Origin: a virus
Strand: one strand, 5' to 3'
DNA length: 30,032 nucleotides
IMG/VR virus record: IMGVR_UViG_3300006870_000050
Coordinates: 1 to 30,032 of that record
Part shown: in pieces, positions 1-26,743 of the stretch
Numbering within the stretch: the first letter of the stretch is position 1
How the letters are laid out: each line of letters opens with the position of its first letter
Program-made: the position numbers and the translations under genes
Notes under the pieces: model-generated
The model's database searches: none
What the model saw: only the letters and a program-made list of their open reading frames with translations
What the model was told of the DNA's origin: nothing

Positions 1-564
1 CTGTCTAACCGCTGTTTCTTGCGCGGCTTGATCTAGTTGTCCAACAAACTGTGCAACCTCTTCATCGGTGGGTGTAAACCCTGCAGCTTCAAATGCTGAA
101 CGAACTTCTGCTTCTGTGGTCTGACGCGGATCAACATATGAACCAACGGTGGTTTTTGTAGCCCCTTCAAAATCTTCTTCCCCTTGACCAACGTAAGCGG
201 CGACCTCTTCGTCTGTAGGCGTGTACCCTTGATCCTCAAAAAACTTACGCGCTTCTGCTTCAGTTACCTGTCTTGGATTTACATAGGCTGCGATAGCTTC
301 TTTCTGATCTGCTTCTGGTGTTGCACCGATTCGCGCAGTTATTTCTTCTTCCGTAGGAGTGTAATCTAGTTCTGCGAAAAACTGCTCTACTTCTTCACGC
401 GTTGTAGCTTGTGGGTCATACTCTGCGGCTATTTCTGCTGCTGCATCTTCGTCATTTTCTACTTCTCTGACGTATTGAGCGGCTTGCTCCTCTGTGAGTG
501 TCACTCCTTCTGCAGCGGCGGTGTTTATAACTTCTTGAGTATCTAAATAGTACGGGTCTACATA
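1..564 (-). repeat. Degenerate 45-49-residue coding repeats
   Basis: Four in-frame units begin with YVDPYY, EYDPQA, YVNPRQ and YVDPRQ, their tyrosine codons starting at 564, 420, 285 and 138. Spacings are 48, 45 and 49 codons. Three units continue with a glutamate-rich helix and a TPT-[DE]-EE[VI] motif. The last two are most alike (TEAEARKFFEDQGYTPTDEE against TEAEVRSAFEAAGFTPTDEE), as expected if the array grows toward the C-terminus. It probably continues past the window edge. Confidence 0.75.
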
Positions 565-3500
565 AGATGCGACCAGCGTAGCCACATCACTGTCAACGTT
601 TAGACCTGAGAGTATCTTTTTTGCTTCTCCTATTATGGGCGCAGAAAATTCTATATCATAAGTCTTAAACTCATTTTCTATTTCGCTTTGTGTAACGACA
701 TTCTTATCGTACAGAGAATTAGTAACGTTTAAAGCGGCGTCTGGACCAACACCTAAATCAACGAGAGCATCGTATGAAGACTGCGCGTCCTTACTGTTTT
801 GGATAGACGAAGGTAGTGTTGGTGGTAAGTCCCCATACTCCCCCTGTATTTTTATTTTTGCTAGGTCACCAGCATGTTGAACATCGTCAAGAGTGTATCC
901 ATAAGTGTCAAGAAGATACTCTACGGCTCCAGTATCTGTTGATATAACATAACCGTCTTTCATCAGTAAGTAATTACCGTTAAGACCTGCTAGACTTTCT
1001 AAATCTTCTTCAGAGTATAGCCCACCCCCCTGCGGATTATTTACGTCCATAAACTCTTTGGTTTGAGACAGTTCTACAGGTTGGGCGTTTGTGATAGTTT
1101 GATTTGTAGGGCTACTATTATTTATAATATCTGCGTTTGTGCCAAAGTCTTTAACCGAAGTAACTATTTGATCTCCTATAGCAATGGCTGTACCTGTACC
1201 TCCCCCCGCGATGAACCCTAATAGTGCTGCGGCAGTATTATTGCCTGAACGATCTCTAGTATCATCTATAAGAGACAAACGGCCTTCAATAAAATCTGAT
1301 ATGACCCCTTCTTCAAGTGCTTCTGAAAAACCCTCTTTTAAGCCAACCTTTGTAGGTTCTACGACAAAATCTTTAAGGCCCGATTTGTCATACAAGTTCT
1401 GCATTGCATCGGCCCAACCATCAGGGGCTTTCTTATCCCCAAATATTGCTTTTTCAAGTGCGCTACCACCAATCCCCATAGAAATAAGGCCCATAGTAGC
1501 GCCAACTATACCCGCAGCTTGTGCATTTTCGGTTGCATACTTTATAGCGGCGTCTTCTATTTTAGCTTCATACCGCTCCATCTCATTTGCAGGGGTGCCG
1601 CTTGGTAAATTTCTAAGGGCTACTTCTTTATAAGTCGCGTATGATTTATCATATGCATCACCTGCAGCGCCACCATACGCTTCTAGCACGTTGCCCGCTG
1701 CCGCTGTACCTAAAGCACCTCTAAGGGCTATTTTTTTAGAGAACTCTTCACCCGCTGTCTGTAGTCCTTTTTTAAGTAGAAGGCTCGTACCACCACTTGC
1801 TAGTAAGAACGGCAGTTCTTGGATAATCTCCGATACAACATACTCAGCTATAAATGTACCGGGGGAATCTGCAGCGGTGGCAAGGACTGCAAGAACTGAT
1901 TCTCTAAACCCTTCGGCATCGGCTAAATTTTTACCCATTGCTTCGGCAAGTGCTTCTTTATTGGCTACATAGTCGTCGGTCTGCATTCCTGTGCCGAAGT
2001 CTTCTATGGCCTCACCAAGTTTATACAGCACACTGTCGGACACTTCGCCTTCAGTCCATCCCGCAGCGTTGGTTAATATTTTTCCATACGCAAATGTTTG
2101 CGCAAGAGAGCCTACAGAAGTAGCTGCAAGCCCTGCTGTGTTCTGTACAAAATCTACTATGGCACTTGGGTCCGCTAATTCATATTCAAGTTTGTTTATC
2201 CGTTCAGTTAGCGGGTCCATTGCTACTACATAACCTGCTTCTTCAAAAGCATTACGAACTGCGAGTAAATCCTCTCCTTGATTTATTGTTTGGGAAGTCG
2301 CTCCCGTCACGGGGTTTATGTTTAATACATCACCAATCGGGAACCGTTCCGCAGCTTCTTGGTCGCTTATACCTAACGCGCCCTGTATGATTTTTTGTAT
2401 TTCTGGGTTTATTTTCGTTTCAATTTTGCTTGTCGTATATGTAGGCCCAGCACCTATGTTGGGGATTGTTACTGAATTACTTCCATAAAGAGCTATACCC
2501 TTACCTGTATCTATTAAATTTTTATATAATGCGTATGCTGCCTCTAAACTTAATTTAGAAGGGTCTTGGTCATTTAGCCATTGTTCAACTTCAGTTCCAT
2601 AATTGTCAGTGCCGTCAAAAGATTTTTGCAAAACGGGATCATACGTAGGTATTATATTGTACCCTGCGTCTTTTAATATATGATAGTCCCGTAATGTTAT
2701 TATCGTGTCTTCGCCCCTGCCTAATACATTTGATATATCAGCAGTGACACGACTGCCAACACCTACTGGGGCTAAATCGCTACGAATATCTTTCATAGTT
2801 ATGTCATACGAATTACCAACTGGAGATTCAGCAAACGGGTTTACTTGTTGATAACCATCAGGAGTGTTTTTTAGGTACATACCATTATAATAACTATAAT
2901 CCTCTCCTAACTTATCTTTTACAAACTGATCTAAACTAACGGCATCATACGTTATAGAAGTAGATACTCCATCCGCAAACGGATCAACACGCTGCCACCC
3001 ACTAGGTGTGTTCCTATAATAAGACTTTGTTGCCTCGTCGTATATGTAATCGTCTGGCAACAGGGTCATAGTGATGTTATTAGGGTCTATCGTGGCGTTT
3101 ACGTCTTGGTTTGCTAAATAATGTTCGTAAATATCCTCGTCTTCGCCTAGGTTGTGCATAAGGCGATAGTCTTCTTCAGTAAATCTACCATACCTGTCAC
3201 CCAAATTCTCCATCATTGTCGCGGTGCCAACAACCTCGTTGGTTACCCGTTTGTATTTCTCAAACATTTCGGGGAACTCGTCTAAGTCAGACAATAAATT
3301 TTCTGACGCGGTATTAAATTCTTCCTGTAAGCCCTCTATGGTAGGCGCTATTGCATTGTATGTGTTTAGGTAATCCTGTTTAGCGGACGCGTTTGCGTTT
3401 ACATAGTTTTGATATGCTTGACCTAGAGCAGCGTAATTTGTTCCTTGTGCGCCCTCGGTAGAATTATATAGATCAACTGCATCTGAATAGCGTTTGTACA

Positions 3501-4626
3501 AACGTTCTTCTTCAGTAAGTATCGCGTTGTACGAATTAGCCGCCGTCGTCATGTTAGACTGGGCGGTCGTCAAAGCATTAAGTTTTTCTTCAACTACTCC
3601 TTGGGTGCCAAAAAAAGAATCAAATAATTGATTTGCGCCTAACCCTTCAGCAGAATTTATATAGTCTTTAATTTGTTCATCAACCTGCGCATTTAATGAA
3701 GCAAAAAACGCATCTGTAGGCTCCATTCCACCTGATACAGCAGCATTCACACTCGCGCCCAAGGACTGAGCAAGCATTCTCACACGATTGTCGTCAAGGT
3801 CTATGCCTAACTCTTCTGAAACATCTACAATCGGCGCTATGACACCTTTTGTATAAGTGGATACTAGGTTATTTAGCGCTGCTTCACTAATATCACCGCC
3901 TTCTATTGCAGCAGTTAGACCTGCGGTAACTCCGTCTCTTATGCCAGCGCCTAAATCAGTCCATTGTTTTGTCGCTCCATCCACCTCTGTTAATATGTTA
4001 CCTAATTGGTCATCAATCTTGCCAAGGACCATGCCCATACCTTCAGTAAGGCTACCTGTCAAAAAAGCATTGGACGCAGCTTCAAGGTCACCTTCTGTAT
4101 GAACAAGCGTAGTTGCAAATTGTTCGGAGCCTTTTTCTACAATACTGACTATACTTTCAGGCACCCCTGCATTTTGAAGAATATTACCAGTTTGGTTTGC
4201 TACTATATCCCCTAACTGCGCACCGACATAAGATTTAAGCATAGCTCCAACTATACCTTCGGCGTCTTCTCCTTGATACGCTGCAGATGCACCTGAATTT
4301 AATGCAAATACCCAAGCAGGGGCGTTCAAAAGCACTAAGGCTACTGTGCCAATAGTGCCAAAAGGGTCTTTCTCAATCTCCTCTATTATTATTTCTCCAG
4401 ATTCAATAAGGTCTAGTTCTAATGCTTCGTTCGCATCAAAAGGATTTAAGTCAATAGATTTAAAAGCCTTACCTATGTAATAGACTTCATGCTCTATCGT
4501 ACCCGCAATATCTATATCAAGAAAATCTACATCATCTATGCCCAAATCAATCTCTACCGGACCACCCGGATCGTCAAAAGGATTTAAGTCAATATCTGTT
4601 ATATGCGGCAAATTATTTGTACACAT
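1..4626 (-). CDS. Giant putative internal virion/ejection protein (C-terminus outside window)
   Basis: Reading the minus strand from the ATG at 4626 gives an uninterrupted frame of 1542 codons that runs off the left edge, so the C-terminus is missing. The start overlaps the previous stop as TAATG. The N-terminus is acidic with a repeated IDLNPFD motif. A hydrophobic stretch lies near residues 90-115. Two similar units ending in DPFAD and NPFAE lie near residues 530-600. Gly/Ala-rich hydrophobic stretches occur around 935, 1040 and 1135, the last after a motif of the type EGFSEALEEG that I associate with large phage virion proteins. From about residue 1354 there are four units spaced 45-49 residues, each with a Y-x-[DN]-P start and usually a TPT-[DE]-EE core. 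Size, hydrophobic patches and place at the end of the tail genes suggest an ejected internal protein, as in T7-like and P22-like phages. A tape-measure role is the alternative. Function is inferred; the reading frame itself is certain. Confidence 0.85.
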   Translation of the reverse strand, partial: MCTNNLPHITDIDLNPFDDPGGPVEIDLGIDDVDFLDIDIAGTIEHEVYYIGKAFKSIDLNPFDANEALELDLIESGEIIIEEIEKDPFGTIGTVALVLLNAPAWVFALNSGASAAYQGEDAEGIVGAMLKSYVGAQLGDIVANQTGNILQNAGVPESIVSIVEKGSEQFATTLVHTEGDLEAASNAFLTGSLTEGMGMVLGKIDDQLGNILTEVDGATKQWTDLGAGIRDGVTAGLTAAIEGGDISEAALNNLVSTYTKGVIAPIVDVSEELGIDLDDNRVRMLAQSLGASVNAAVSGGMEPTDAFFASLNAQVDEQIKDYINSAEGLGANQLFDSFFGTQGVVEEKLNALTTAQSNMTTAANSYNAILTEEERLYKRYSDAVDLYNSTEGAQGTNYAALGQAYQNYVNANASAKQDYLNTYNAIAPTIEGLQEEFNTASENLLSDLDEFPEMFEKYKRVTNEVVGTATMMENLGDRYGRFTEEDYRLMHNLGEDEDIYEHYLANQDVNATIDPNNITMTLLPDDYIYDEATKSYYRNTPSGWQRVDPFADGVSTSITYDAVSLDQFVKDKLGEDYSYYNGMYLKNTPDGYQQVNPFAESPVGNSYDITMKDIRSDLAPVGVGSRVTADISNVLGRGEDTIITLRDYHILKDAGYNIIPTYDPVLQKSFDGTDNYGTEVEQWLNDQDPSKLSLEAAYALYKNLIDTGKGIALYGSNSVTIPNIGAGPTYTTSKIETKINPEIQKIIQGALGISDQEAAERFPIGDVLNINPVTGATSQTINQGEDLLAVRNAFEEAGYVVAMDPLTERINKLEYELADPSAIVDFVQNTAGLAATSVGSLAQTFAYGKILTNAAGWTEGEVSDSVLYKLGEAIEDFGTGMQTDDYVANKEALAEAMGKNLADAEGFRESVLAVLATAADSPGTFIAEYVVSEIIQELPFLLASGGTSLLLKKGLQTAGEEFSKKIALRGALGTAAAGNVLEAYGGAAGDAYDKSYATYKEVALRNLPSGTPANEMERYEAKIEDAAIKYATENAQAAGIVGATMGLISMGIGGSALEKAIFGDKKAPDGWADAMQNLYDKSGLKDFVVEPTKVGLKEGFSEALEEGVISDFIEGRLSLIDDTRDRSGNNTAAALLGFIAGGGTGTAIAIGDQIVTSVKDFGTNADIINNSSPTNQTITNAQPVELSQTKEFMDVNNPQGGGLYSEEDLESLAGLNGNYLLMKDGYVISTDTGAVEYLLDTYGYTLDDVQHAGDLAKIKIQGEYGDLPPTLPSSIQNSKDAQSSYDALVDLGVGPDAALNVTNSLYDKNVVTQSEIENEFKTYDIEFSAPIIGEAKKILSGLNVDSDVATLVASYVDPYYLDTQEVINTAAAEGVTLTEEQAAQYVREVENDEDAAAEIAAEYDPQATTREEVEQFFAELDYTPTEEEITARIGATPEADQKEAIAAYVNPRQVTEAEARKFFEDQGYTPTDEEVAAYVGQGEEDFEGATKTTVGSYVDPRQTTEAEVRSAFEAAGFTPTDEEVAQFVGQLDQAAQETAVRQ

Positions 4627-5054
4627 TATTTAGGCTCCTGAATGTTTATGGTTCCATACAAGCGCCCTGTTTTTTTCGCTTTGCGTATTTCTACCGGATA
4701 CTCTCTATCTATAGCACGGAACAACGGAGTTAACCGCACATCGTCAGTGCTAAATTTTAAAACTGATATTTTACGTTGTTTTAGCTTTTTTAAGTACGCA
4801 TACACTTGTCTTACAAGGTCTACAGCTTGATCCAGTGTATACATTTTTACCGCCGCTACCCTATACCCTTTTTTGTTTTCTTTTATTGGTGTGGTAAAAA
4901 ATACCGTGTTACCGTACTGGTCTACAACAGTATGTTTGTTTTTACCTAATATAGTAAGGAACAACATAGTCTCACGTATTTCTTCAGGTGACGCATTATG
5001 CTGCTCCGTAAGAGAGCGCCCTATAATTGTGGGTATGTCTAACTGTTCCATCAT
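4626..5054 (-). CDS. Conserved 142-aa virion-region protein, unknown function
   Basis: This 142-aa protein starts MMEQLDIPTIIGRSL and ends GTINIQEPK. The first ATG overlaps the previous TGA as ATGA, and the second ATG three bases on is an alternative start. Its stop overlaps the giant gene's start as TAATG, so the two are probably co-translated. A central part (KENKKGYRVAAVKMYTLDQA) followed by a long helix (VDLVRQVYAYLKKLKQRKI) has an alpha/beta character that can look GNAT-like, but I see no acetyl-CoA pyrophosphate-binding loop. It has no signal peptide or membrane segment. Its position suggests a partner or small internal virion protein of the giant product. That role is inferred. Confidence 0.8.
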   Translation of the reverse strand: MMEQLDIPTIIGRSLTEQHNASPEEIRETMLFLTILGKNKHTVVDQYGNTVFFTTPIKENKKGYRVAAVKMYTLDQAVDLVRQVYAYLKKLKQRKISVLKFSTDDVRLTPLFRAIDREYPVEIRKAKKTGRLYGTINIQEPK

Positions 5055-5671
5055 GAGTTAGTCCCGAATGTTACATCAACCGTAGCAGATGCGACGCCGG
5101 GGTGAAGGGCTGATGCGGCTTCTGCGTGTAAGTTTAACTGCGTATCAGTAGTGGCCCAGTAGATTTCAATATAGTCATCTGCTTCTAAAGCGCGTGTAAA
5201 AACCCAGTTAACAACATAGAAATCGTTACCTTTTACATCAAATAGATGTCCTGAGTAGGGTGTATCGGTAGTTCCATTTAGCTTCTCCCAAACAGTTACC
5301 GTAGCCTCACTAGAATTATTATGCTCTATCTGAAGCGTTATAGAAAACTGATATGTACCTGCGTGGGTAACATTTATCCTGCTATTGTTTGATAGAGTTA
5401 TGCTATCCGTGTGATGCGTAGAATTAAACGTAACCGCGTACCCCGTACTTGCCATTGCCGCCGTTTGGTCAACAGTGCTATAAAAAGACCCCCGTGGCAT
5501 GTAGAGAAACCTACCGCCGTCTTCAGTAGATGTGAGTGTAGTAACAATGTTAGTTAAACGCCGAAAGAACAGACGTAACACGTTACTTTGCTGATCTACG
5601 AACGGTCTATCATAGCCATCAGGTGCCAGCGGTAGGGCAGGTGGTTCAACTTGGTCAATTTCATTTGCCAT
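5051..5671 (-). CDS. Putative jelly-roll (C1q/TNF-like) tail protein
   Basis: 206 aa. Residues 1-55 form a proline-rich lead and a helix (PFVDQQSNVLRLFFRRL). Then comes a MPRGSFYSTVDQTAA segment and an all-beta C-terminal domain of about 140 residues, with a turn of the type SRINVTHAGTYQFSITLQIEH and a later EADDYIEIYW motif. The AGTYQFS-like strand and final hydrophobic strand are typical of C1q/TNF-like jelly rolls in phage tail proteins, which often trimerise and bind receptors or cap fibres. The start overlaps the stop of the upstream hub candidate as TAATG. Domain identity rests on pattern memory only. It is probably a tail appendage or head-fibre-like protein. Confidence 0.8.
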   Translation of the reverse strand: MANEIDQVEPPALPLAPDGYDRPFVDQQSNVLRLFFRRLTNIVTTLTSTEDGGRFLYMPRGSFYSTVDQTAAMASTGYAVTFNSTHHTDSITLSNNSRINVTHAGTYQFSITLQIEHNNSSEATVTVWEKLNGTTDTPYSGHLFDVKGNDFYVVNWVFTRALEADDYIEIYWATTDTQLNLHAEAASALHPGVASATVDVTFGTNS

Positions 5672-7536
5672 TATCGTCTTCCATCTGGCCTAGTATCTAC
5701 ACGAGGTGTACCTAACTGCCACATAACTCCTTGTCCTGTGGATTCTATTTTTAGCACCATTTGTCGCCCCCGCACGCGCATGAAAAGCTGATCTGTATAT
5801 TGCTCTATGGGGGCAGTGGCACTGCGCGTTACAGTGCCCGAACTATTCCCACTTTCTGACAATGGGCTGTTAAACCCAGAACCAGAATTAGCCAACGGTT
5901 GCAAGGTTAGAGTAGCTGCAGGAGATGTGGCGGTAGAGCCTTCAAAAGTCATATCAGGGAGCACACGATTGATTAAAGCAAACCTACTCCCATCACTAAG
6001 GTCAAACTGGGAAGACGATATATTTGCCGTTATAGCTGTGCCTGCCCCTGTTTCATTGTCGTCAATACCATCTTCATGGTTCACAAGATTGTAAGTGTAA
6101 GTTGCAGCGAGAGGAAAGTTGCGTAGCCCTGAGTCTAACCATGCAGTGCGTCCCAGTGACCCGTAATACCAAGTATCTTCTAGGTAATTATAGATAACGT
6201 ATTTGTCGATCTGTTCTTGGTTTGTGGAACAATAAAACCACCATATTTCGTGAAATGCTTCGTTAGTGCCCGCAAAAAACTGGTCGTACTGTAACGTATT
6301 TAGGTTATTAAAGATATGACGCTTAACATCACAGCGAAGTGGTTGTGTGCGACCATCGTATTTATAGAACTTATCTTTACCCATCCAGTATGCGACACCG
6401 TTAGCAAACGCTACACTGTTCTGAGATGCAATTGATATGTTGTTACCAACAAGCTGTGCGCCCCATACAGCGGGTGCTCCAACATACTGTATAGAATACA
6501 ACGCAGAGTCCGACCAAACTAGAACCTCCTGACGAGCCTGTTTTGCGGCTACAATTTCAGTGCCACGGGAAAGTCGTAAATCACCTGCTTGGTTTGTAGA
6601 CGCAGGGGTCCAGTTAACTGCGCTCTCTTGGTCGGACCACCTAACAAGCATAGGATCTTGCGTAGCACTACCTAAATTATTGCAGCCGAAACAAAATACA
6701 AACCTGTTAATATCAGATACTAGCAGTAAGTTATGCACTGTTGGTACGTCAGATGCACCGCCAAGACTTGAAAGTAATACCCCGCGAGAAGACACTCCGC
6801 TGGTAGCATCCCAGTAGTATATACTGCCGCCGCGCACACCAAATATTAAATCTTCACCAAAGTTAGATTGGCTCCAAAGCCGAATAGCTTCATTAGATGC
6901 AAGTCCGTTACTCCACGTACCACCACCCCAAGTACCCGCACCCCAGCCTGTAAGTGGAACAACTGATGCTTGACCTGTAGTGATTTGGTAAGCTGCAGTG
7001 ACGGCCCCGCCACCATTGCCTGTGTCAGACGCGTTAGCCGTAGCAGATACGGTTATAGTATATTCGTTTCCACTATTAACGGCTGTTATTTGGTGTTCAG
7101 CGTTTAGGATTGCCGCAGTAATGTTACCACCCAAAGAGGCTGCGCCACTAAATGTTACAAAGTCATTGATAGACGCCCCATGACTAGCGTCAGTCACCGT
7201 TATAGTAGTGCTACCGTTAGTAGCTGCAAAAGTGGCAGTATTGGTTGTGGTTGCACGGATCGGTGTAATGTCGTTGTACGCGCCCCCTTGCTCTAAGTAA
7301 AACTTCAAGTTTGTACCTACTCCCACAAGGTTAAACCCAGATAGGGTTACCCAGTTCCACAACGAGCGACACACACCCAAAAATGTAGAAGTAGATATTC
7401 TGTTCCACCCACCTATTTTCTCTGGAAACCCCTGCCTAAAACGTATTTTATCGCCGTCGAACCAACCATTTCCTGAAGAGTAGCTAGTACGTTCGTCGTT
7501 TATTCCGGGTTTAAACTGGAGTTTCTGGAAAGGCAT
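5671..7536 (-). CDS. Putative tail hub/nozzle structural protein
   Basis: 621 aa from the start MPFQKLQFKPGIN. An ATG 24 bases further upstream is in frame, but the chosen start has AGGTG at a proper distance, lies just after the previous stop and matches the family N-terminus I remember. The N-terminus (GWFDGDKIRFRQGFPEKIGG) is very typical of a conserved marine phage tail family. Inside it are a threonine/alanine-rich beta domain around residues 95-185 and several tryptophan-containing strands (WGAGTWGGGTW, LVWSDSALYSIQY, EIWWFYCST) that suggest a beta-propeller-like body. By context it is a candidate for the tail tip or nozzle, comparable in role to T7 gp12 or P22 gp10. The specific equivalence is inference; that it is a virion tail protein is fairly safe. 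Confidence 0.85.
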   Translation of the reverse strand: MPFQKLQFKPGINDERTSYSSGNGWFDGDKIRFRQGFPEKIGGWNRISTSTFLGVCRSLWNWVTLSGFNLVGVGTNLKFYLEQGGAYNDITPIRATTTNTATFAATNGSTTITVTDASHGASINDFVTFSGAASLGGNITAAILNAEHQITAVNSGNEYTITVSATANASDTGNGGGAVTAAYQITTGQASVVPLTGWGAGTWGGGTWSNGLASNEAIRLWSQSNFGEDLIFGVRGGSIYYWDATSGVSSRGVLLSSLGGASDVPTVHNLLLVSDINRFVFCFGCNNLGSATQDPMLVRWSDQESAVNWTPASTNQAGDLRLSRGTEIVAAKQARQEVLVWSDSALYSIQYVGAPAVWGAQLVGNNISIASQNSVAFANGVAYWMGKDKFYKYDGRTQPLRCDVKRHIFNNLNTLQYDQFFAGTNEAFHEIWWFYCSTNQEQIDKYVIYNYLEDTWYYGSLGRTAWLDSGLRNFPLAATYTYNLVNHEDGIDDNETGAGTAITANISSSQFDLSDGSRFALINRVLPDMTFEGSTATSPAATLTLQPLANSGSGFNSPLSESGNSSGTVTRSATAPIEQYTDQLFMRVRGRQMVLKIESTGQGVMWQLGTPRVDTRPDGRR

Positions 7537-7543
7537 TTTACAC

Positions 7544-7756
7544 CTATGAAGTTTCAGCAAACATTGGAGGGAATGTGGTTACACTTATAGCCACATGTTG
7601 TTTTAGATTTAACACTTCACCACAATCAGAACACATATCTGCGGCAAGTTCGGATTCATCTAAATCATAGCCACAAGCATCGCACACCTGATGTATTACA
7701 TGAGCAGGCTCTACTGAGCCATCTTCTAGCGTCTTTGCTTTATTTTCTACGCGCAT
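7544..7756 (-). CDS. Small zinc-ribbon protein
   Basis: 70 aa with two CxxC knuckles, C25-D-A-C28 and C42-S-D-C45, spaced as in a four-cysteine zinc ribbon or rubredoxin-like fold. It is acidic between the knuckles and ends in a hydrophobic stretch. It lies between the outer spanin gene and the putative tail hub gene and probably shares their transcript. Nothing shows whether it is a virion component, an assembly factor or a regulator. A second, unrelated-looking zinc ribbon is encoded at 19359-19721. Confidence 0.75.
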   Translation of the reverse strand: MRVENKAKTLEDGSVEPAHVIHQVCDACGYDLDESELAADMCSDCGEVLNLKQHVAISVTTFPPMFAETS

Positions 7757-7768
7757 ACAAGCACTCCT

Positions 7769-7981
7769 CTACTTTCCACTGCATAATCTTTCATACTGTT
7801 CGTTGTGCACAATAGTGTCGGTTAGTAACTGCTGATCATTCTTTAGAAGCCAAGCGGTCACATGAGCGTCAGCAAAATAATGCGGTTTTGCTATATCACA
7901 ATAGCCGTTAACCGTCACGCTTTCGCACCCACTTATTAGCACGATTGAGCAGAGCATCATCATCCAAACGTTTAACTTCAT
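7769..7981 (-). CDS. Outer-membrane spanin subunit (Rz1-like lipoprotein)
   Basis: 70 aa. The N-terminus MKLNVWMMMLCSIVLISGC has a short positive end, a hydrophobic core and a lipobox I-S-G-C with the lipidated cysteine at residue 19. The mature part has about 52 residues and two further cysteines (C28, C67). The first 74 bases overlap the end of the inner spanin gene in another frame, which is the classic Rz/Rz1 arrangement. O-spanins sit in the inner leaflet of the outer membrane and bind the i-spanin across the periplasm to fuse the two membranes at the end of lysis. The gene implies a Gram-negative host. The mature part is not proline-rich like that of lambda Rz1. Confidence 0.8.
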   Translation of the reverse strand: MKLNVWMMMLCSIVLISGCESVTVNGYCDIAKPHYFADAHVTAWLLKNDQQLLTDTIVHNEQYERLCSGK

Positions 7982-8147
7982 TCTCTACATCCTTCGCCGT
8001 CAACATATCATCAACACGTTTTTTAGTAGCTTTTGCGCGTACTTTCTGTGCTCCGCTAGCTGCACCCTTCAAGTATACCATAAGCATGGCACCAAGAACA
8101 GCCACCGCAGCATAAGCGTACAATTTAAGTCGAGCTAGCATAAACAT
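7908..8147 (-). CDS. Inner-membrane spanin subunit (Rz-like)
   Basis: 79 aa with one N-terminal membrane segment, about residues 9-26, followed by a basic, helix-prone periplasmic part (KKRVDDMLTAKDVENEVKRL) that should form a coiled coil. The start overlaps the amidase stop as TAATG. The 3' end overlaps the lipoprotein gene by 74 bases, supporting an i-spanin/o-spanin pair. It is shorter than lambda Rz. The assignment rests on topology and gene order, not on sequence similarity. Confidence 0.75.
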   Translation of the reverse strand: MFMLARLKLYAYAAVAVLGAMLMVYLKGAASGAQKVRAKATKKRVDDMLTAKDVENEVKRLDDDALLNRANKWVRKRDG

Positions 8148-8809
8148 TAACGGTCACCCTGTTTCCATTTTTTGGTACGCTCAATGTCAATCACGCCTGT
8201 TCCGACTAGAATCACTATCGACAGAGCGCCCAAAATCAGGAGTTTCTGCCAGTCTAGCCCACCTAATGTCCCAACCAGCGGGGTAGCAAGTCCAGCAATC
8301 TTTGTGACCTGAGATGCTTGGATCGTCTTCGATTGGGCTAAGGATTTTCTGGGTTCTTTTGGAGGGGTCTTGTCCTGAGCTATCCATTTATTCACCCTAA
8401 ACGTTGGACAAGCCTTGGTAACATCTGGCAAATCATTGTGACCAACAATCTGAGTAATGTTAGGAAACTCCATCCGCAACTGAGCAATTAGCCTACGCAG
8501 TGAACGATCTTGTGCATCGGTAAAGTTTTCCTCAAACTCATCATTCGCAGTACCGCCATGCCCTCCAAAGATTGCAACACCTATAGAAGTAGCGTTATAC
8601 CCCTTGGCGTGAGCACCTGCACGTTCTACAGGACGCCCCTCAACGATAACGCCATTACGATCAATGAGGTAATGATAGCCCACATCCGACCAACCTTTGT
8701 CCGTATGCCATTTTTTAACCTCTGCAACTTTTGCTTCTGTTGTTTGGTCGGACTGCCATTCAGGTCTTGTTGCAGTACAGTGTACTACGATCATATCTAT
8801 TTGCCGCAT
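8147..8809 (-). CDS. N-acetylmuramoyl-L-alanine amidase (endolysin) with C-terminal hydrophobic segment
   Basis: 220 aa. Residues 1-145 form an Amidase_2/T7-lysozyme type domain: IVVHCTAT with zinc ligand H10, YHYLIDRNG with Y45 and H46, then VGHNDLPD with H124 and KACP with K132 and C134. These match the T7 lysozyme ligands (His, His, Cys) and its catalytic Tyr and Lys. It would cut the bond between N-acetylmuramic acid and L-alanine in peptidoglycan. Residues about 146-187 form a Lys/Pro/Ser-rich linker. Residues 188-206 are hydrophobic enough for a membrane segment, followed by a basic tail, which is unusual for this family. The gene lies between a holin candidate and the spanins. The start overlaps the upstream gene by 13 bases; an internal ATG at 8794 is possible. 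Confidence 0.9.
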   Translation of the reverse strand: MRQIDMIVVHCTATRPEWQSDQTTEAKVAEVKKWHTDKGWSDVGYHYLIDRNGVIVEGRPVERAGAHAKGYNATSIGVAIFGGHGGTANDEFEENFTDAQDRSLRRLIAQLRMEFPNITQIVGHNDLPDVTKACPTFRVNKWIAQDKTPPKEPRKSLAQSKTIQASQVTKIAGLATPLVGTLGGLDWQKLLILGALSIVILVGTGVIDIERTKKWKQGDR

Positions 8810-12964: not shown

Positions 12965-14857
12965 TTAGGCATACGTTACTTCTGCTGTTGCAATGTTTGC
13001 AACCCAACGAATATTTGTTGCTGCAACACCTGTGGCTTGAACGTTTAGGGCATTGTTTGTGTTGTCAGCATACAAATTCAACTTCCAACCACTTGATCCA
13101 ATCTCTGAAATGTTAAAGATTGGTAGTGTAGTTGTGCCACCGTCATTTACTAGCAGTCCACGTATTTCCCACGATCCGTAAGACGAAGCACCATTTTGCA
13201 TAGCTACGACTGTGCCTGAAAATGTAATACAGGTATCAGTAGCTGCTACGATTTGATTAGTTGATGTTGCTGTGCTGTTGTTTGTAGTTAAGGCTTCAGC
13301 AGTTGCATCTGTAGTGTCTGCACGAAGAATAAACTGACCACCTTGTGCGTCACCTGCTGCGGCAAACTGACCAGAAGCATAGGCCCTTTGTCCAGTAACC
13401 GTTGCGACTGCTTGCATTCCGTGTGCAAAAGAACCGTGACCAGAAGCCGTGTTGAAATAACCGCCAGCAACAGTAGAGTAGTTATTACTGGCAGTGCCAT
13501 TAAAACCACCTGTAACAGCAGAATATGACCCAGTCGCACTATTGGCCTGACCTCCTAAAACGGCACCTCTTGCACCGCTTGCTGTGTTTGCATTCCCACC
13601 TGCTATAATTGAGTAATTGCCTGATGCTGTATTACTCAAACCACCAATTGCAGCACTGTTGATGTTGGTTTCAGCAATATTCTGGTTACCAATAGCAATA
13701 GAGTTAGCAGAAGTAGCCTTTGACAGATACCCCATAGCAATACTATTAGAACCACTTGCACCGTAGCTAGATGAACTAGACCCTATATTAACTGCAAAAG
13801 CCTCGGTACTACTAGCCCGTGACCAACCAATAGCAACAGATCGTGTACTGGTTGAAGTGGGTCCCCAACCAAGAGCAACAGAATTTGAACCAGATGCACT
13901 TGCTGTGTACCCTACAGCTACACTATCAGCACCTCCCGCTGAAGATTGAAGGCCAGCAGCTATTGCGCCTCCCCCTGCCGCCGTAGGTCTTGCAAAGTAG
14001 TCTGTAGAAGTGTTTCCGACCCACATTATAGTTCTGTCGAGGGAATACCAGTTTAACCCGTCTGTATAGATGTGTATGCTTTCACCTGTGTACAGTTTTT
14101 CTGTACCTCTACCATCTATTGTTTCAGTCCCATCTGGATCAATCGTTGTAATATCGCCAGCACCAGCTTCGTTTTTAATCCAAACGTGAAATCCTGCTCC
14201 AAGGGTTGCTGCTGCTGTTAATGATATTGTTATATCATTACTACTATGCGAAATAACTTTACCTGCATCTCCTGCAACAACAGTATAGTTTGCCGTTTTA
14301 TCGTCTAGTGTAAGATCGGAATCGAATCCCCCACCAGCCGCGTCTGCCCACTCGCCAGCCGTTCCGCCAGAATTTACTGTGAGTACCTGACCTGCAGTTC
14401 CAAGGGTAGCTGGAATATTTTGAGCAATGTCTACGCCATCAACGGTCCCGCCCACTGTTATATTCCCATAGGCGTGGAACCGTTGTGACCCGCTTGAATA
14501 CATTAACTGAGCCGCCGCACTGCCGCTCCTATAAAAGATCAAGTTGTTGCTAAAGCTAAAATATGTATCGCTTGCCGATGGGCCTGTAATTCTAAAAATA
14601 CCACTAGCATCACGATAAATACTCGCGCCGCCGCCGAAGTCTAATCTGGCTCCTTGATCAAAAACAAAGTCGTCCGTCGATTTATCCCAAAGGACATTAT
14701 AAGTATCACCCGTAAAATCTACGTCAGCGGCGATGGCGACAGTATTAGCACTCGTTACAGTTGCGCCGACACCAATAGCTATAGAGTTTGTACCCGTTGC
14801 ACTAGGTAAAGTAGACGTACCGTCATAATTCTCAGCGCTAAGATTGGTTATTGTCAT
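12965..14857 (-). CDS. Tail fibre with YadA-like head repeats, family member 3
   Basis: 630 aa. An opening segment with TNSIAIGVGATVTSANTVA is followed by a mixed beta region, then the NIPATLGTAGQVLTVNSGG segment shared with the 510-aa paralogue. Around residues 180-275 lies a separate beta domain (KVISHSSNDITISLTAAA to GESIHIYTDGLNWYSLD). Then come many repeats of the A-x-A-x-G / S-x-A-x-G type (GSNSVALGWGPTSTSTRSVA) typical of YadA-like trimeric adhesin heads. The last 110 residues are the shared C-terminal domain ending AEVTYA. It would form a trimeric, left-handed beta-roll fibre for host contact. AGGAG precedes the start. Confidence 0.85.
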   Translation of the reverse strand: MTITNLSAENYDGTSTLPSATGTNSIAIGVGATVTSANTVAIAADVDFTGDTYNVLWDKSTDDFVFDQGARLDFGGGASIYRDASGIFRITGPSASDTYFSFSNNLIFYRSGSAAAQLMYSSGSQRFHAYGNITVGGTVDGVDIAQNIPATLGTAGQVLTVNSGGTAGEWADAAGGGFDSDLTLDDKTANYTVVAGDAGKVISHSSNDITISLTAAATLGAGFHVWIKNEAGAGDITTIDPDGTETIDGRGTEKLYTGESIHIYTDGLNWYSLDRTIMWVGNTSTDYFARPTAAGGGAIAAGLQSSAGGADSVAVGYTASASGSNSVALGWGPTSTSTRSVAIGWSRASSTEAFAVNIGSSSSSYGASGSNSIAMGYLSKATSANSIAIGNQNIAETNINSAAIGGLSNTASGNYSIIAGGNANTASGARGAVLGGQANSATGSYSAVTGGFNGTASNNYSTVAGGYFNTASGHGSFAHGMQAVATVTGQRAYASGQFAAAGDAQGGQFILRADTTDATAEALTTNNSTATSTNQIVAATDTCITFSGTVVAMQNGASSYGSWEIRGLLVNDGGTTTLPIFNISEIGSSGWKLNLYADNTNNALNVQATGVAATNIRWVANIATAEVTYA

Positions 14858-14869
14858 GGCTTGTTACTC

Positions 14870-15967
14870 CTATGCATACGTCACTTCAGAGGTTGAAATA
14901 TTAGCAACCCAACGGATGTTATGTGCAGCCTCTCCCGTGCAAGTAATCGCTAGTGCATTGTTTGTGTTGTCGGCTGAAAGAACTACAGTCCAACCATTAC
15001 CGTCTGCAAAAGTTTTAACCTCTGAGTTTACCAGAGTAGTCGTACCACCATCGTTCTTCAGCAAACCTCTGATTTCCCAGCCACCTTGATCCTGTGCGCC
15101 ATTCTGCATTGCTACAATCGTTCCTGAGAACATAATGCAAGTATCACTGGCAGCTACGATCTGGTTGTTAGTTGACGCCGATAGATTGTTGCCTGTTAAA
15201 ACAGTAGCAGTCGCATCGGTGGTGTCTGCAACCAAAACAAACGTACTGCCTTGAGCATCACCTTTTGTACCAAAGAAAATCCCAGAAAATGCCATTTTTC
15301 CTTGCTGCTCTGTTTTCCCCCGAAGAATAGCTGCCGAATAACCATGCTGTGCATTAGCATCAGTACCTATAGCCAAAGCTGACCCAACGGCTGTTGTCAA
15401 ATAACCAACGGCTGTTGCACTTGTACTCGTAGCACTACTAGAGACACCAATTGCGATTGATCTTACACCTGATGCGGTGCCATTTAGGGCTACGGCATTT
15501 GTTTGTGCGGCCTTGGCAAATTGTCCAATTGCAATACTATTAGCACCAGTAGCACCGTAGCTTGAGGAGTTAGTTGATATAGCTGCTGCGAAGCTATCTG
15601 CGCCAGAGGCGTAAGCTCTTGATATTGCTGTCGCATACGACCCAGTTACAGCTTGCGCATAAGTACCTAAAGCAAGAGCACTAGATGATGTTGCATCCGT
15701 GCCTCTGCCAAACGCCATTGATTGAACACCAGAGGCGACTGCATCCAAACCAATTGCAAAGGCGTCTTCTCCACTTGCTACCGCACTATCACCAATAGCT
15801 ATAGCATTGGCCCCTGTCGCACTTGGTTGAGCCGTAGGACTACTTTCATTAGCAGCATAAAGAGCAGCACCACCTACCGCACTGCCTCCAACTAAAAGAC
15901 TTGTGCCATCAGAGCTTAGAGTAATGCCGCCGCCTGTGCCTGTGTGATCTAGTTCAATCTTGCCCAT
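14870..15967 (-). CDS. Tail fibre with YadA-like head repeats, family member 2
   Basis: 365 aa from [13 protein letters not shown], whose ATG overlaps the stop of the preceding fibre as TAATG; an in-frame ATG at 16009 lies inside that gene and is rejected. After a short lead it enters [20 protein letters not shown], almost identical to the 699-aa paralogue, then head repeats such as [20 protein letters not shown], then the shared C-terminal domain ending SEVTYA. It has no long N-terminal anchoring region, so it may assemble onto another fibre rather than onto the tail itself. That idea is inference. Confidence 0.85.
   Translation of the reverse strand: MGKIELDHTGTGGGITLSSDGTSLLVGGSAVGGAALYAANESSPTAQPSATGANAIAIGDSAVASGEDAFAIGLDAVASGVQSMAFGRGTDATSSSALALGTYAQAVTGSYATAISRAYASGADSFAAAISTNSSSYGATGANSIAIGQFAKAAQTNAVALNGTASGVRSIAIGVSSSATSTSATAVGYLTTAVGSALAIGTDANAQHGYSAAILRGKTEQQGKMAFSGIFFGTKGDAQGSTFVLVADTTDATATVLTGNNLSASTNNQIVAASDTCIMFSGTIVAMQNGAQDQGGWEIRGLLKNDGGTTTLVNSEVKTFADGNGWTVVLSADNTNNALAITCTGEAAHNIRWVANISTSEVTYA
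15781..15829 (-). repeat. 49-base exact repeat between fibre genes, copy A
   Basis: This tract is identical to 17160-17208 in the neighbouring fibre gene and encodes part of the [20 protein letters not shown] segment. Similarity continues on both sides with a few changes. It indicates a recent duplication or recombination between the two genes. Confidence 0.8.
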
Positions 15968-18066
15968 TACGCGTATGTGACCTCCGATGTATGAACCGTT
16001 GCAACCCAACGGATATTCGTGGCTGCTGCTCCCGTAACCTCAACCTTTAGACCGCCATTCGTTGTATCAGCACTTAAAGCCACAGCCCACGCAGATGCAC
16101 CAGAGGTAGCGTATAAATGGTTTACGATGCCGTTGCCCAAGACAGTCGATGCAGCATTTGCATCCCGCAACAACGCACCCTTGATCTCCCAGCTTGCGTA
16201 GTCGCTGCCATCAGTTGCACTTTCACGAGCAATAATTGTACCTGAGAAGCTGTAGGCAGAGTTGTTTGGTAGGATGATTTGATTAGTAGTTCCCGCTAGG
16301 ATACTGTTGTTAGTTGTAAGAGCTTCTGCGGTTGCGCTAGTAGTATCACTACGAAGGACAAATGTTCCTGCTTGTGCATCTCCATCAGCAGAAAAACGAC
16401 CAGACGCATGAGCCTCTTTTCCGTATATTAACGCTTGAGCATAAAAACCGTGTGCAAACGAATAGCTTTGTGTTGCGTCATTGTATTGGCCCCCAAGAAC
16501 AGTGCTACCAGAGCCACTGGCAACATTGGAAAAACCGCCAACTACTGTTGAATCATTAGCAGTAGCTGAAGAGCCAGCACCGCCAAAAGCTGTTGCATAA
16601 ATTCCAGTAGCTGAGTTGAGATACCCAATTGCATAACTCCTAGTGTTTGTAGCAATAGCTTGCTGCCCTATCGCAATACTGTTAGCACCACTAGCACCAT
16701 ACAATGAAGAAGAATTAGCTATACCAATAGCAACAGCATCTGCACCCGATGAAACAGAACGACCTAAAGAAAGTCCGTAGTTTCCAGTAGCACTTGCTTC
16801 AAAACCAATAGCAACAGCACCCTGTGCGGAAGAACCTGTATTGGACTGCCAGCCCATAGATACACTGTAGTCACCTCTAGCACCATAGCTTGAGGTATTG
16901 TTAGCTATAGCTGCTGCGAAGCTGTCTGCGCCAGAGGCGTAAGAGGTTCCAAGTGCTACGGCTGATATACCTGTGTTAGAAATTGTAGCACCATCTCCTG
17001 CGGCAAAAGACTTTTGACCATCTGTTGTAGCACTGCTCCCAATAGCAATGCCTCTTGTGCCATTTGATGTTACTGCTGCGTTCCACCCAATTGATACAGC
17101 AAAAGCACCAGCGTTGGTTGCTCCGTCACCAATACTTATAGCATCTTGTGCGCTTGCTGCCGCACTATCACCAATAGCTATAGCATTGGCCCCTGTCGCA
17201 CTTGGTTGTGCTGTAGGTGAGCTTTCATTAGCAGCATAAAGATCAGCACCCGCTTGATCTACAAAACTCAACACCCCAGAGCCGTTAGTCTGAAGTACCT
17301 GTCCACTTGTACCATCAGCAGTAGGAAATTCAATCGCACTGTTAATGTTTAACGCGCCAGTGTGCACGTCGTTTACATAAAATACATTCCACTTTGCAGA
17401 GCCAGTACCTAAAGAAATAGTGCCATTAGCTAACTGATTGCCAGAATAATTAAACGGCATAATACTAGGAGTGCCGGGATCATAAAGAAGCCCTGAAACC
17501 CCATCCCCCATAATATAATAGCCGCCCGATATACCTATTTTACCAGCAGTAGAACCAGCATATTGAAAATCAACAATGTCCCCTTCTGTAGTAGTTCGGT
17601 TAAGAACAGCAGGAGCCGCTGATGCCGCAGAGATACTCAACGCCCCCGACATGGTGTCGCCTGTCACTGCAACAAAATCAGTTGCGGCGGACGTAGCCGC
17701 TGTACCTAAACCAAGATTAGTTCGTGCAGTAGACGCATTATTTAAGTCTGACAGGTTGTTAGATGGCTGCATAATGTCAGCAGCTACTGCCGTAATAAAC
17801 ACACGAGCACTACCTGACAAGTTAATAGCAGAACCACCACTAGAACTTTCGCTAGGGGTACGAGATAGTGTCGTACCAGACGCGGTGTACGTGCCTGTAC
17901 CTATCTCAAAATTAGCCCCATCTTCTATGGTATAGCCAACTACATCACCGTCAGACACCCCAGCGGCAGCGAATGTTTGGTAGCCTGAAACGGCACTCCC
18001 TAGAGTTATTGTGCCTGTCCCGGGCGTAGAAGTTGAGACATAGGCTCTATTCTTTAAAACAGGCAT
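15967..18066 (-). CDS. Tail fibre with YadA-like head repeats and anchoring N-terminus, family member 1
   Basis: 699 aa, the longest of the four fibre paralogues. Residues 1-95 ([18 protein letters not shown] to SARVFITAV) form an N-terminal domain found in many marine phage fibres and probably attach to the tail. An ARTNLG motif follows near residue 115, then a variable beta region to about residue 275. From [20 protein letters not shown] onward there are many YadA-type head repeats (for example [20 protein letters not shown]), and the final 110 residues are the shared C-terminal domain ending SEVTYA. It is the likely main host-recognition fibre. AGAGGT precedes the start, and its stop overlaps the next gene as TAATG. 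Confidence 0.88.
17160..17208 (-). repeat. 49-base exact repeat between fibre genes, copy B
   Basis: This is the second copy of the tract at 15781-15829, inside the 699-aa fibre gene. A further 21-base identical piece follows a short diverged gap. Both copies mark the junction where the head repeats begin. Confidence 0.8.
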
Positions 18067-21450: not shown

Positions 21451-21813
21451 TTACCTCATCTTACAGACTTTGCCGCCACGGGCTAATCCGTAACCACGAA
21501 CCTTACCGCCTTTTTTAAAAGATCTATTCGTAGTATAGCTCATAGGTGCGGAACCAATAGCTTCTGACGCTGTATCTAATGCTTGCGATGCTTTACTCGC
21601 GGATACGGATATATCAGTGATATTATCATACGCACTCTTATTTTGGTTCGGCTGTAGCGTACCCCCAAGTGTACCCCCAGAACCGCCGCCAATGGGGAGG
21701 AATTTAGCTATATCAAACCCACCCGGAGCACCTGAGTTATCCATACGCAAATCCCCACCAGTTTGGAATTTTTTAACTTTTTTAGAGGATTTATTTTTTG
21801 TCCGTTTACGCAT
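21451..21813 (-). CDS. 120-aa protein with C-terminal tag
   Basis: The protein has a basic start (MRKRTKNKSSKKVKKFQTGG), a Gly/Pro/Ser-rich flexible middle (FLPIGGGSGGTLGGTLQPNQ), a helical stretch (SVSASKASQALDTASEAIG) and the tag GGKVRGYGLARGGKVCKMR at the very end. The tag and its DNA are identical to those of the next gene upstream (21816-22244). The low-complexity middle argues for a disordered virion or packaging protein rather than an enzyme. No function is recognised. Confidence 0.75.
   Translation of the reverse strand: MRKRTKNKSSKKVKKFQTGGDLRMDNSGAPGGFDIAKFLPIGGGSGGTLGGTLQPNQNKSAYDNITDISVSASKASQALDTASEAIGSAPMSYTTNRSFKKGGKVRGYGLARGGKVCKMR
21452..21516 (-). repeat. 65-base perfect direct repeat, copy 1 (tag plus ribosome binding site)
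   Basis: This tract is identical to 21817-21881. It encodes the last 20 or so residues of the 120-aa protein and includes ATGAGGTA, which serves as the ribosome binding site of the following gene. Perfect identity in otherwise unrelated genes points to a recent duplication or conversion. Confidence 0.85.
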
Positions 21814-21815
21814 AA

Positions 21816-22244
21816 CTACCTCATCTTACAGACTTTGCCGCCACGGGCTAATCCGTAACCACGAACCTTACCGCCTTTTTTCATACCCATAGACTCTTTA
21901 GCTGCCGCTTCTTCAGCTATTTTAGCTACATTGCGTCCAAGATTGGCTCCGGGCAAAGCAAACATAGCCAAGTCTTCAGCGGTTCGTTTAGCTGCCCGAT
22001 TGCCGCGCTCTATGGCTCCTATTTCATCCACGGTGGGCATATCATCAGGGCGTGCCCTTGGACGAAGTGACGCTTCCATAGTCGTATCATTCGGTCTTGC
22101 TCTTGGGCGCATAGAAGCTCTTGGAGCTAGCTTTGATGAAGGACGTGCCTTTGGGCGCATAGAAGCCTCTGGAGCTAGCTTTGAAGCGTCTTCTTTCTTC
22201 ATCTTTTTGCCTCTTCTAGGCGCATTTCTACCTTTTCTAGCCAT
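21816..22244 (-). CDS. 142-aa basic protein with internal ASMRPRARP repeats and C-terminal tag
   Basis: The protein is strongly basic. Residues 21-67 hold three tandem units of about 16 residues with cores ASMRPKARP, ASMRPRARP and ASLRPRARP. A helical part follows (DEIGAIERGNRAAKRTAEDL), and the end carries the tag GGKVRGYGLARGGKVCKMR. Similar S-L-R-P-x-A-R-P repeats occur in other phage virion proteins. The start lies immediately after the stop of the 55-aa gene. The arginine/proline repeats could bind DNA or dock on the capsid, which is inference. Confidence 0.75.
   Translation of the reverse strand: MARKGRNAPRRGKKMKKEDASKLAPEASMRPKARPSSKLAPRASMRPRARPNDTTMEASLRPRARPDDMPTVDEIGAIERGNRAAKRTAEDLAMFALPGANLGRNVAKIAEEAAAKESMGMKKGGKVRGYGLARGGKVCKMR
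21817..21881 (-). repeat. 65-base perfect direct repeat, copy 2 (tag plus ribosome binding site)
   Basis: This is the second copy of the tract at 21452-21516, at the 3' end of the 142-aa gene. The stop codons differ just beyond the repeat (TAG here, TAA in the other copy). A more diverged third copy of its last part lies at about 21236-21262. Confidence 0.85.
22044..22184 (-). repeat. Three tandem Arg/Pro-rich coding repeats
   Basis: Three units of about 16 codons encode the ASMRPxARP motif in the 142-aa protein. The first two also share a KLAP lead and long DNA similarity (TTTGGGCGCATAGAAGC in plus orientation against CTTGGGCGCATAGAAGC), so they arose by local duplication. Confidence 0.75.
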
Positions 22245-26368: not shown

Positions 26369-26743
26369 CTATACTGTCATAATGCCGCGAGGATCAGGGA
26401 TAACTGCCTCTACAGAATCATCATTCATCAAACGAAACTCTTTGCCGTTTACCTTGAACCGTGTGCCTGTGTTCATACGGAACATCACGTAGTCCCCTAC
26501 TTTACACCACGGACCCTCTGGAAAACGCTCTTTGTCAGAGTATGCGTCTGCTCCCATGTCAATAACTACGCCCATAATAGACATAATGTATTCACGATGC
26601 TTTTCAGTATCAGTCTTGAGTAGACTCGTGCCTTCATAATGATCATCAATATCAGGCAGTGCTACCAACAATCTGTACCCTACAGGCACGGGAAGTTGGG
26701 CTTCCCATTGCTCGTCAGCTAGTTTTGTGACGGTATTAGTCAT
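26369..26743 (-). CDS. GroES-like co-chaperonin
   Basis: 124 aa from MTNTVTKLADEQWEAQLPVP; this ATG follows GGAAGAAG, whereas a longer reading from 26800 has no site and lies within the upstream gene. The body shows a cpn10-type plan: PVGYRLLVALPDIDDHYEGT, a polar loop (LLKTDTEKHREY) in the place of the GroEL-binding mobile loop, IMGVVIDMGADAY, FPEGPWCKVGDYVMFRMNTG and FKVNGKEFRLMNDDSVEAVI. Phage co-chaperonins such as T4 gp31 cap the host GroEL chamber so that the coat protein can fold. Placement between portal and scaffold supports that role. The conclusion is fairly strong; which host GroEL it binds is unknown. Confidence 0.87.
   Translation of the reverse strand: MTNTVTKLADEQWEAQLPVPVGYRLLVALPDIDDHYEGTSLLKTDTEKHREYIMSIMGVVIDMGADAYSDKERFPEGPWCKVGDYVMFRMNTGTRFKVNGKEFRLMNDDSVEAVIPDPRGIMTV

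Follow-up and report, generated by a model that had tools for sequence, protein, structure and literature searches.

A giant repeat-containing protein of a podovirus-type phage, possibly an exchangeable part of the DNA-ejection module with an adjustable spacer

Introduction

The ejection proteins of T7 (gp14, gp15 and gp16) and P22 are among the closest described counterparts of the protein studied herein, the product of a giant gene in a 30,032-base linear IMG/VR virus record (IMGVR_UViG_3300006870_000050; the whole stretch is called the window). The window is a fragment of a podovirus-type phage. Known ejection protein families are very divergent among themselves, according to passages of PMC8954989. 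The giant protein shares with the T7 and P22 proteins a position near nozzle and ejection-like genes, a large size and a helical make-up. It differs from them by the lack of detectable sequence similarity, by a variable repeat array and exchanged middles, and by its apparent absence from two cultured relatives in which its flanking genes are retained; no transglycosylase domain was found in it. The late-cluster position near the nozzle and ejection genes that marks podovirus ejection proteins was found for the giant.

Polyvalent proteins (DarB and the LPD giants) are likewise giant multi-part proteins in a late virion context with module exchange, and an LPD39 giant is located four genes downstream of the giant in the relative L014. 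However, no polyvalent enzymatic or LPD domain was recognised in the giant. The place of the giant in the gene order, called the slot, holds Pro-Glu rods or charged coils in some relatives, which presumably resemble the Pro-rich spacer of TonB and the helical spacer of TolA, by composition only. The slot protein differs from these in being phage-encoded, the likeness being one of composition, and its window allele has a helical repeat array in place of such elements.

Metaviromic islands and hypervariable regions of marine phages also show allele replacement in otherwise similar genomes, and these variable regions include internal virion proteins, as described in passages of PMC3909814, PMC10504331 and PMC3861242. 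The reason for internal virion proteins in under-recruiting islands is called obscure by the authors in a passage of PMC3909814, and internal virion protein genes are described as divergent or mosaic in a passage of PMC10386132. In comparison with the islands as those passages present them, the exchanged unit is here resolved within a single gene, one end of which is kept while the spacers are interchangeable. The slot gives the island question a concrete form: a kept end, a measurable spacer length and exchangeable modules. No paper on the giant or its repeat was found among titles and abstracts of the open literature (subscription papers lie outside this scope), and the word 'ejection' is absent from the main text of PMC10149686 and PMC9599517, which concern cultured relatives.

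Herein, the giant is tentatively read as an accessory, recombining protein of the DNA-ejection module of short-tailed, mostly uncultured phages with an adjustable spacer, a reading held with a confidence just short of evenly balanced. Gene position, the repeat array, the end tails, the allele differences and the frequent company of an upstream gene were computed directly.

The giant frame and its repeat array

The giant gene, on the minus strand, is a single frame that starts with an ATG at 4626 and stays open for 1,542 codons, with no stop before window base 1. Reading of the frame confirmed an earlier note, made from the sequence alone, which had reported a frame of at least 1542 codons that is unclosed in the window. 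The parts of the gene are as follows.

1..4626, minus strand: giant protein, 1,542 amino acids visible, 3' end outside the window
2959..4626, minus strand: N region, residues 1-556; alignment of 46 sequences; model mean predicted local distance difference test score (pLDDT) 60.7
2200..2958, minus strand: variable linker, residues 557-809, weakly conserved
607..2199, minus strand: M region, residues 810-1340, helical and Gly/Ala-rich, strongly divergent among some close relatives
421..564, minus strand: repeat 1, residues 1355-1402
286..420, minus strand: repeat 2, residues 1403-1447
139..285, minus strand: repeat 3, residues 1448-1496
1..138, minus strand: repeat 4, residues 1497-1542, running to the window end

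Four helical repeats of about 47 residues start at residues 1355, 1403, 1448 and 1497, with a spacing of 48, 45 and 49. The profile used to score the repeats contained neither the window nor its nearest copies (L001, L002, L003, L004, L012, L018 and L082; L-numbers denote relative contigs or loci, several loci being one contig fetched twice). Repeats 1 to 4 scored 31.7, 38.7, 62.9 and 63.8 bits. The best shuffled domain reached 5.1 bits for the whole protein (1,000 shuffles, 675 with any reported domain) and 10.1 bits for residues 1341-1542 (1,000 shuffles, 986 with a domain). The four-copy array is far above chance expectation, and the 45-49-residue repeats that the earlier note had placed near the visible end are real. 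Its Y-x-[DN]-P start holds for repeats 1, 3 and 4, which open with Y-V-[DN]-P, and fails for repeat 2, which opens with Y-D-P.

The repeat set, collected in three scans, comprises 98 loci including the window and contigs fetched twice, with 75 distinct proteins, or 72 after contained ones were removed. It was collected via the repeat or the giant and so cannot give the frequency of slots lacking them. The 45 distinct proteins with both ends visible carry 2 to 21 copies (median 8) and are between 656 and 3,111 residues long (median 1,970); proteins with more copies tend to be longer (r 0.56). The most copies, 29, were found in the right-open frame L095, for an overall range of 2-29. After the array, 32 to 1,033 residues follow in the 45 proteins (median 468); the minimum belongs to L102, whose frame is broken inside the array. 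The repeat-built C-terminus of the earlier note was therefore not upheld, the array being the last visible part of the window protein. Only 5 of 29 right-open frames stop within 12 residues of a repeat, and the remainder stop further off.

The contig L002, identical to the visible giant, extends one base past the window end. The last 84 coding bases of the window are the first 84 of contig L018, in which about seven repeats follow and then another 575 or so residues. On this identity, L018 is the probable continuation of the giant beyond window base 1, the side from which the earlier note had wanted sequence. In L020 the giant appears as two frames (stretches of 931 and 999 amino acids), either a real split or an assembly error.

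A Gly-Gly tail closes most of the complete proteins. Among right-complete giants, 47 of 50 carry the pattern GG.[VI] in their final 50 residues, compared with 22 of 672 other open reading frames (ORFs). This pattern was chosen after the tails had been viewed and misses L088, L094 and L102; a stricter earlier pattern matched 28 of 59. The ORFs matching the N, M, repeat or tail profiles were removed from the control (30 of 681 with slot giants still inside), which still holds the mini-allele of L145 and frames that are possibly not genes. In 36 of the 50 right-complete relatives, a dockerin-like calcium-loop motif of the YDxTGDG type follows the array. It was not found in the visible part of the window giant, as represented by the identical copy L002; in L018, Pfam Dockerin_1 reached E 0.0031 and 18.1 bits against a cut-off of 22.9.

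Predicted structure and domain searches

Fold prediction, which the earlier note had named as a check, showed the modelled parts of the window giant to be almost wholly helical. The model of residues 810-1542 (48 sequences) has a mean pLDDT of 72 and a predicted template modelling score (pTM) of 0.43, with strands limited to bridges of one or two residues. Each modelled repeat is folded into about three short helices, mostly at pLDDT 89-96, falling to 80-82 in the last 13 or so residues; the blocks at 89-96 span repeats 1 to 3 and part of repeat 4. The model of residues 1-556 is also helical (mean pLDDT 61), with a predicted antiparallel coiled-coil hairpin at about 328-467.

A Foldseek search of the PDB with the giant models gave no match at E <= 0.001, and the VIA structure matches look like generic helical bundles. 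The best fold matches in BFVD are two uncultured Caudovirales proteins of 1,090 and 765 residues (E 1.2e-7 and 5.5e-4). The second is named for a lytic-transglycosylase domain; given a root-mean-square deviation (rmsd) of 49 and 32, the two matches are a hint only. By sequence, the giant matched nothing above threshold in Pfam, PHROGs or the PDB. No relative was found by tblastn in 50,697 phage records with the low-complexity filter on, nor in one scan of a genome-contig collection that returned 52 pattern stretches. No wall-lytic, lysozyme or transglycosylase domain was found in the giant with Pfam, PHROGs and the PDB, nor in L018, through which alone the unseen end of the window giant is represented in the domain scans. 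A lysozyme explaining the whole protein, which would have refuted the earlier note, was not recovered. Polyvalent-type enzymatic or LPD domains above cut-off were absent from the window protein, L014, L121, L171 and L018. No family above threshold was found for the upstream gene, whose best PDB match is KaiC (0.0052).

Several weak candidates were set aside: Sigma70_r3 in the giant (E 0.0015, 19.1 bits, below the cut-off of 25.3), phrog_25320 in the giant (0.0051), calmodulin with the A4 profile (0.0095) and DUF2789 in L018 (1.8e-5, 25.2 bits, below the cut-off of 27). A GNAT assignment of the upstream gene, compared with one Alcaligenes phage protein, was unsupported, as were relations of the N region with the next gene of the same phage and with d4 of L014. 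The A4 profile against the Pag-Yong1 giant was also unsupported, though the M profile alone reached E 7.8e-5 and 17.9 bits.

Allele exchange between close relatives

The following genes precede the giant in the window.

5671..7560, minus strand: stabilisation or needle-type virion protein (phrog_3287, 2.8e-66), the anchor of synteny
5051..5671, minus strand: 206-amino-acid protein (p206) that bounds the slot on the left, with a weak match to a minor tail protein (phrog_746, 8.2e-4)
4626..5054, minus strand: 142-amino-acid upstream gene, usually found where the N region of the giant occurs

The DNA of L004 is 97.6% identical to the window through the 206-amino-acid gene. It then shows two matches of about 110 bases (75% and 71%) up to residue 1,340 or so, followed by 94% identity. 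At the protein level, the identity is 99% for the stabilisation protein and 98% for p206, then 47% for the upstream gene, 35% for the N region and 21% for the M slice. Between L037 and L046, identity is 90-100% to about residue 420, 10-46% from about 470 to about 1,200 and 76-100% thereafter, with neighbour genes at 90-99%. The middle is replaced between L039 and L044 (flanks mostly 70-100%), and the N-terminus between L083 and L074 (the rest mostly 75-100%, with one dip to 35%). L009 and L065 carry 18 versus 13 repeats at 92% identity of the N region and 93% of the stabilisation protein.

Both regions were measured in 23 pairs with stabilisation proteins at least 95% identical; pairs and loci are not independent of each other. 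In five of these pairs, both N and M reach at least 99%. Among the remaining 18, N or M drops to 60% or below in 10, which fall into five groups: the window and L003 with L004; L037, L043 and L046; L039 with L044 and L045; L074 and L075 with L083; and L005 with L011. The stabilisation proteins within these groups are 95-100% identical. Strongly different alleles are therefore present between near-identical neighbours. The M slices were cut relative to the first detected repeat, and the named pairs were rechecked by sliding global alignment.

The upstream gene and the N region are more similar to each other in their divergence than the stabilisation protein predicts (partial correlation r 0.69, 0 of 999 permutations, 55 loci). 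The partial r was 0.47 for the upstream gene with M and 0.50 for N with M, each with 0 of 999 permutations in the 55 loci. Upstream and d1-d4 sequences in the pair comparison were chosen by position and size, not by homology.

Contents of the slot

A second set was collected via the stabilisation protein, with 80 of 597 relatives kept and 79 new loci. At least 3.5 kilobases (kb) follow the stabilisation gene in 41 of the 79, leaving 36 loci after five duplicates were dropped; this filter leaves out short alleles such as L145. Many frames in this set run off the contig, and missing later parts are often a matter of truncation. With either of two profile sets, the upstream gene and the N region occur together in 21 of the 36 distinct loci and are jointly missing from 15. 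The first N profile drew on residues 1-480 of every left-complete giant, including some with an unrelated start, and the retest used cleaner profiles from 12 loci. In the repeat set, 56 of 67 loci have both, 3 have neither and 8 have the N region without the upstream gene.

Twelve of the 36 loci contain N, M and repeats, 6 contain M and repeats, 6 contain N only, 4 contain other mixtures and 8 contain none of these. One start is common to seven of the eight "none" loci (L118, L129, L133, L138, L141, L142 and L165), of which six carry a coil of charged Ala/Glu/Arg/Lys/Gln composition and five carry Pro-Glu rods; these frames end at the contig edge, with their C-tails outside the view. The eighth, L148, has Pro-Glu and poly-Asp together with a match to the C-tail profile. 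In L171, the N region and the tail are found within 1,051 residues. L145 is only 236 residues long; its start looks similar by eye, and it has a Gly-Gly tail.

The spacer role is supported because the array, coil, rod or poly-Asp occupies one slot. The earlier note had suggested spacer or wall-binding units; the spacer part gains from these unrelated extended elements, and the wall-binding part does not, since no wall-binding or lysozyme domain was found.

In the slot of L113, three large genes of other make-up (3265-8689; 512, 553 and 734 amino acids) precede an M-plus-repeat giant, which has EF-hand-like loops at its start, by eye.

Gene neighbourhood

In the relatives compared, the order is the stabilisation gene, a p206 homologue or piece, small genes in some cases, the upstream gene (about 155 amino acids), the giant and, on contigs long enough to include them, d1, d2, d3 and d4. 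Profiles of d1 and d2, built from these very kinds of loci, each matched downstream of 47 of 50 distinct right-complete giants. The family phrog_4287, 'DNA ejection protein', matched 6 of 44 scanned d1-d4 proteins (best 2.1e-9), LPD39 matched 4 of the 44 (best 1.1e-12) and a DarB-like family matched 1; this pooled scan does not tell which members matched. In single scans of L014, the ejection-protein match was found in d2 and the LPD39 and DarB-like matches in d4. The giant of the relatives thus sits two genes ahead of d2 and near the LPD39 giant d4. The term ejection-like of the earlier note is partly supported, by this position, with d1 and d2 downstream and matches to the ejection PHROG, and by the helical models.

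The cultured phages Pag-Yong1 and DSL-LC04 have homologues of the stabilisation, p206-like, d1 and d2 genes in order, and d2 homologues are also found in HTVC023P and CRP-901; the comparison covered parts of HTVC023P, CRP-901 and DSL-LC04.

As separate observations, the d4 gene of L014 (12301-17769) is itself a second giant of at least 1,823 amino acids with the LPD39 and DarB-like matches. Within the structural block of L009, a 370-amino-acid ketoacyl-synthase-like gene (4242-5351; Ketoacyl-synt_C, 1.1e-16) follows the p206 homologue and precedes the upstream gene. Several relatives have a gene of 370-374 amino acids at this place, and the window has none.

Discussion

The ejection-module reading is favoured because of the position, the helical make-up and the neighbours of the giant. 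Its product would probably be packaged with or near the ejection proteins and would probably be pushed, together with the DNA, into the cell envelope, which it may enter as an adjustable spacer. The C-terminal Gly-Gly tail resembles a docking part and would act as such; less strictly, the same would hold in many alleles for the N region together with the upstream gene. The middle would be the spacer, made of the helical repeat array or, in other alleles, of a charged coil, a Pro-Glu rod or poly-Asp, and would also carry exchangeable, largely helical modules. Recombination would alter repeat number and module identity, perhaps as an adjustment to different envelopes or defences. From the loci we infer packaging in the virion, ejection, a span across the periplasm, docking, and selection by host or defence. 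The further idea of an exchangeable envelope-spanning tether, in which the slot takes equivalent unrelated spacers and modules between docking ends and recombination retunes both delivery reach and target, is rather doubtful. If such an ejected tether were true, adaptation to host and defence would act on DNA delivery, beyond receptor binding alone.

Several findings weigh against the ejection-module reading. The giant is without a sequence match to any known ejection family in Pfam, PHROGs, the PDB or the phage records, and only 6 of the 44 d1-d4 neighbours match the ejection PHROG. A resemblance to TIM23, the best among only generic helical matches in the PDB (Z 6.9, rmsd 5.6, 134 residues aligned), is below the trusted range of the tool for helical bundles. 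Membrane insertion of the giant has weak grounds because its hydrophobic segments are not above chance: four 19-residue windows exceed a Kyte-Doolittle value of 1.3 versus a shuffle mean of 3.97, and 597 of 1,000 shuffles give at least four. The scattered hydrophobic patches of the earlier note therefore equal the expectation from composition, in a test that was run after they had already served as a lead. The N region and the upstream gene are also separable. The eight loci with N alone are L063, L074, L075, L083, L095, L096, L100 and L102; among mixed short loci under the 3.5 kb filter, L145 has the upstream gene without N and L159 has N without the upstream gene; and between L039 and L044 the two are parted, at 40% identity for the upstream gene and 85% for the N region. 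Exchange is not universal either, with 8 of the 18 close pairs showing no large replacement (for example L021/L022 and L058/L060) and the difference between L005 and L011 being diffuse, not block-wise.

In the parts examined, no convincing giant, repeat or upstream gene was found in Pag-Yong1 and DSL-LC04 by any profile. Weak exceptions are the M profile against the 'large polyvalent protein' of Pag-Yong1 (E 7.8e-5, 17.9 bits) and the N profile against the d1-like gene of DSL-LC04 (0.026). Since no giant is recognisable in these two cultured relatives although they retain the flanking genes, the giant would not be a core ejection part and, judged by homology, looks like an addition to a core block.

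The variability of the giant would also suit a surface adhesin. An external adhesin or tail-tip fibre, with the kept tail anchored to the virion and the variable middle contacting the host surface, is unlikely. Strongly different alleles among close relatives are typical of host-recognition genes, carbohydrate-binding and tail-fibre proteins are the commonest identified genes of under-recruiting regions in a passage of PMC3909814, the dockerin-like calcium loop is found in 36 of 50 right-complete proteins, and weak tail-fibre matches (best 3.9e-6) are seen for L148, an alternative allele. However, beta-rich fibres differ from the helical window models with their minimal strand bridges, genes that resemble fibres by their YadA-like repeats (by eye) are located elsewhere in the window (12965-18066), and in the relatives the giant is followed, after d1, by the ejection-protein-like d2, with the LPD39 giant nearby. 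That same LPD39 giant, with its LPD39 and DarB-like matches, instead suits a polyvalent or anti-defence protein that would be injected and act in the cytoplasm, with the exchanged middles as effectors and the repeats as mere linkers. Passages of PMC5512222 place polyvalent proteins among virion genes and presume them to be injected, and module exchange suits an arms race. With no enzymatic or LPD domain above cut-off in the five proteins scanned (the window protein, L014, L121, L171 and L018), this explanation is quite unlikely. A tape-measure-like assembly ruler would account for the varying array length, and the d1-like gene of cultured DSL-LC04 is annotated 'tail tape measure protein'. It is very improbable: portal, capsid and other core genes are of podovirus type by homology, no tail-tube or sheath gene was recognised among the scanned part of the window proteins, and the array differs in length between L009 and L065 while the stabilisation protein stays 93% identical.

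Other features of the window

The window genes lie on the minus strand in the order terminase, portal, capsid, fibre-like genes, amidase, stabilisation gene, two small genes and giant. The remaining features are listed below.

30032-29379, minus strand: terminase
29368-26933, minus strand: portal
24299-23391, minus strand: capsid
8809-8147, minus strand: amidase (Pfam Amidase_2, 2.8e-22), a gene separate from the giant

Portal, capsid and other core genes match podovirus-type phages. The portal and capsid matches include Planktothrix phage Pag-Yong1, Pelagibacter phages HTVC023P and HTVC027P, Roseobacter phages CRP-901 and CRP-902, DSL-LC04 and others; the capsid is 70.7% identical to its best match and the portal at most 45%.

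A GroES-like gene is found among the head genes (26369-26800, minus strand), with 45% identity to a Pag-Yong1 gene annotated GroES. Two adjacent small proteins (21451-21813 and 21816-22244, minus strand) have the common terminal tail KKGGKVRGYGLARGGKVCKMR, another Gly-Gly tail type in the same phage. Three consecutive fibre-like genes (12965-18066, minus strand) show YadA-head-like repeats, by eye, and related C-terminal ends, and the first two overlap.

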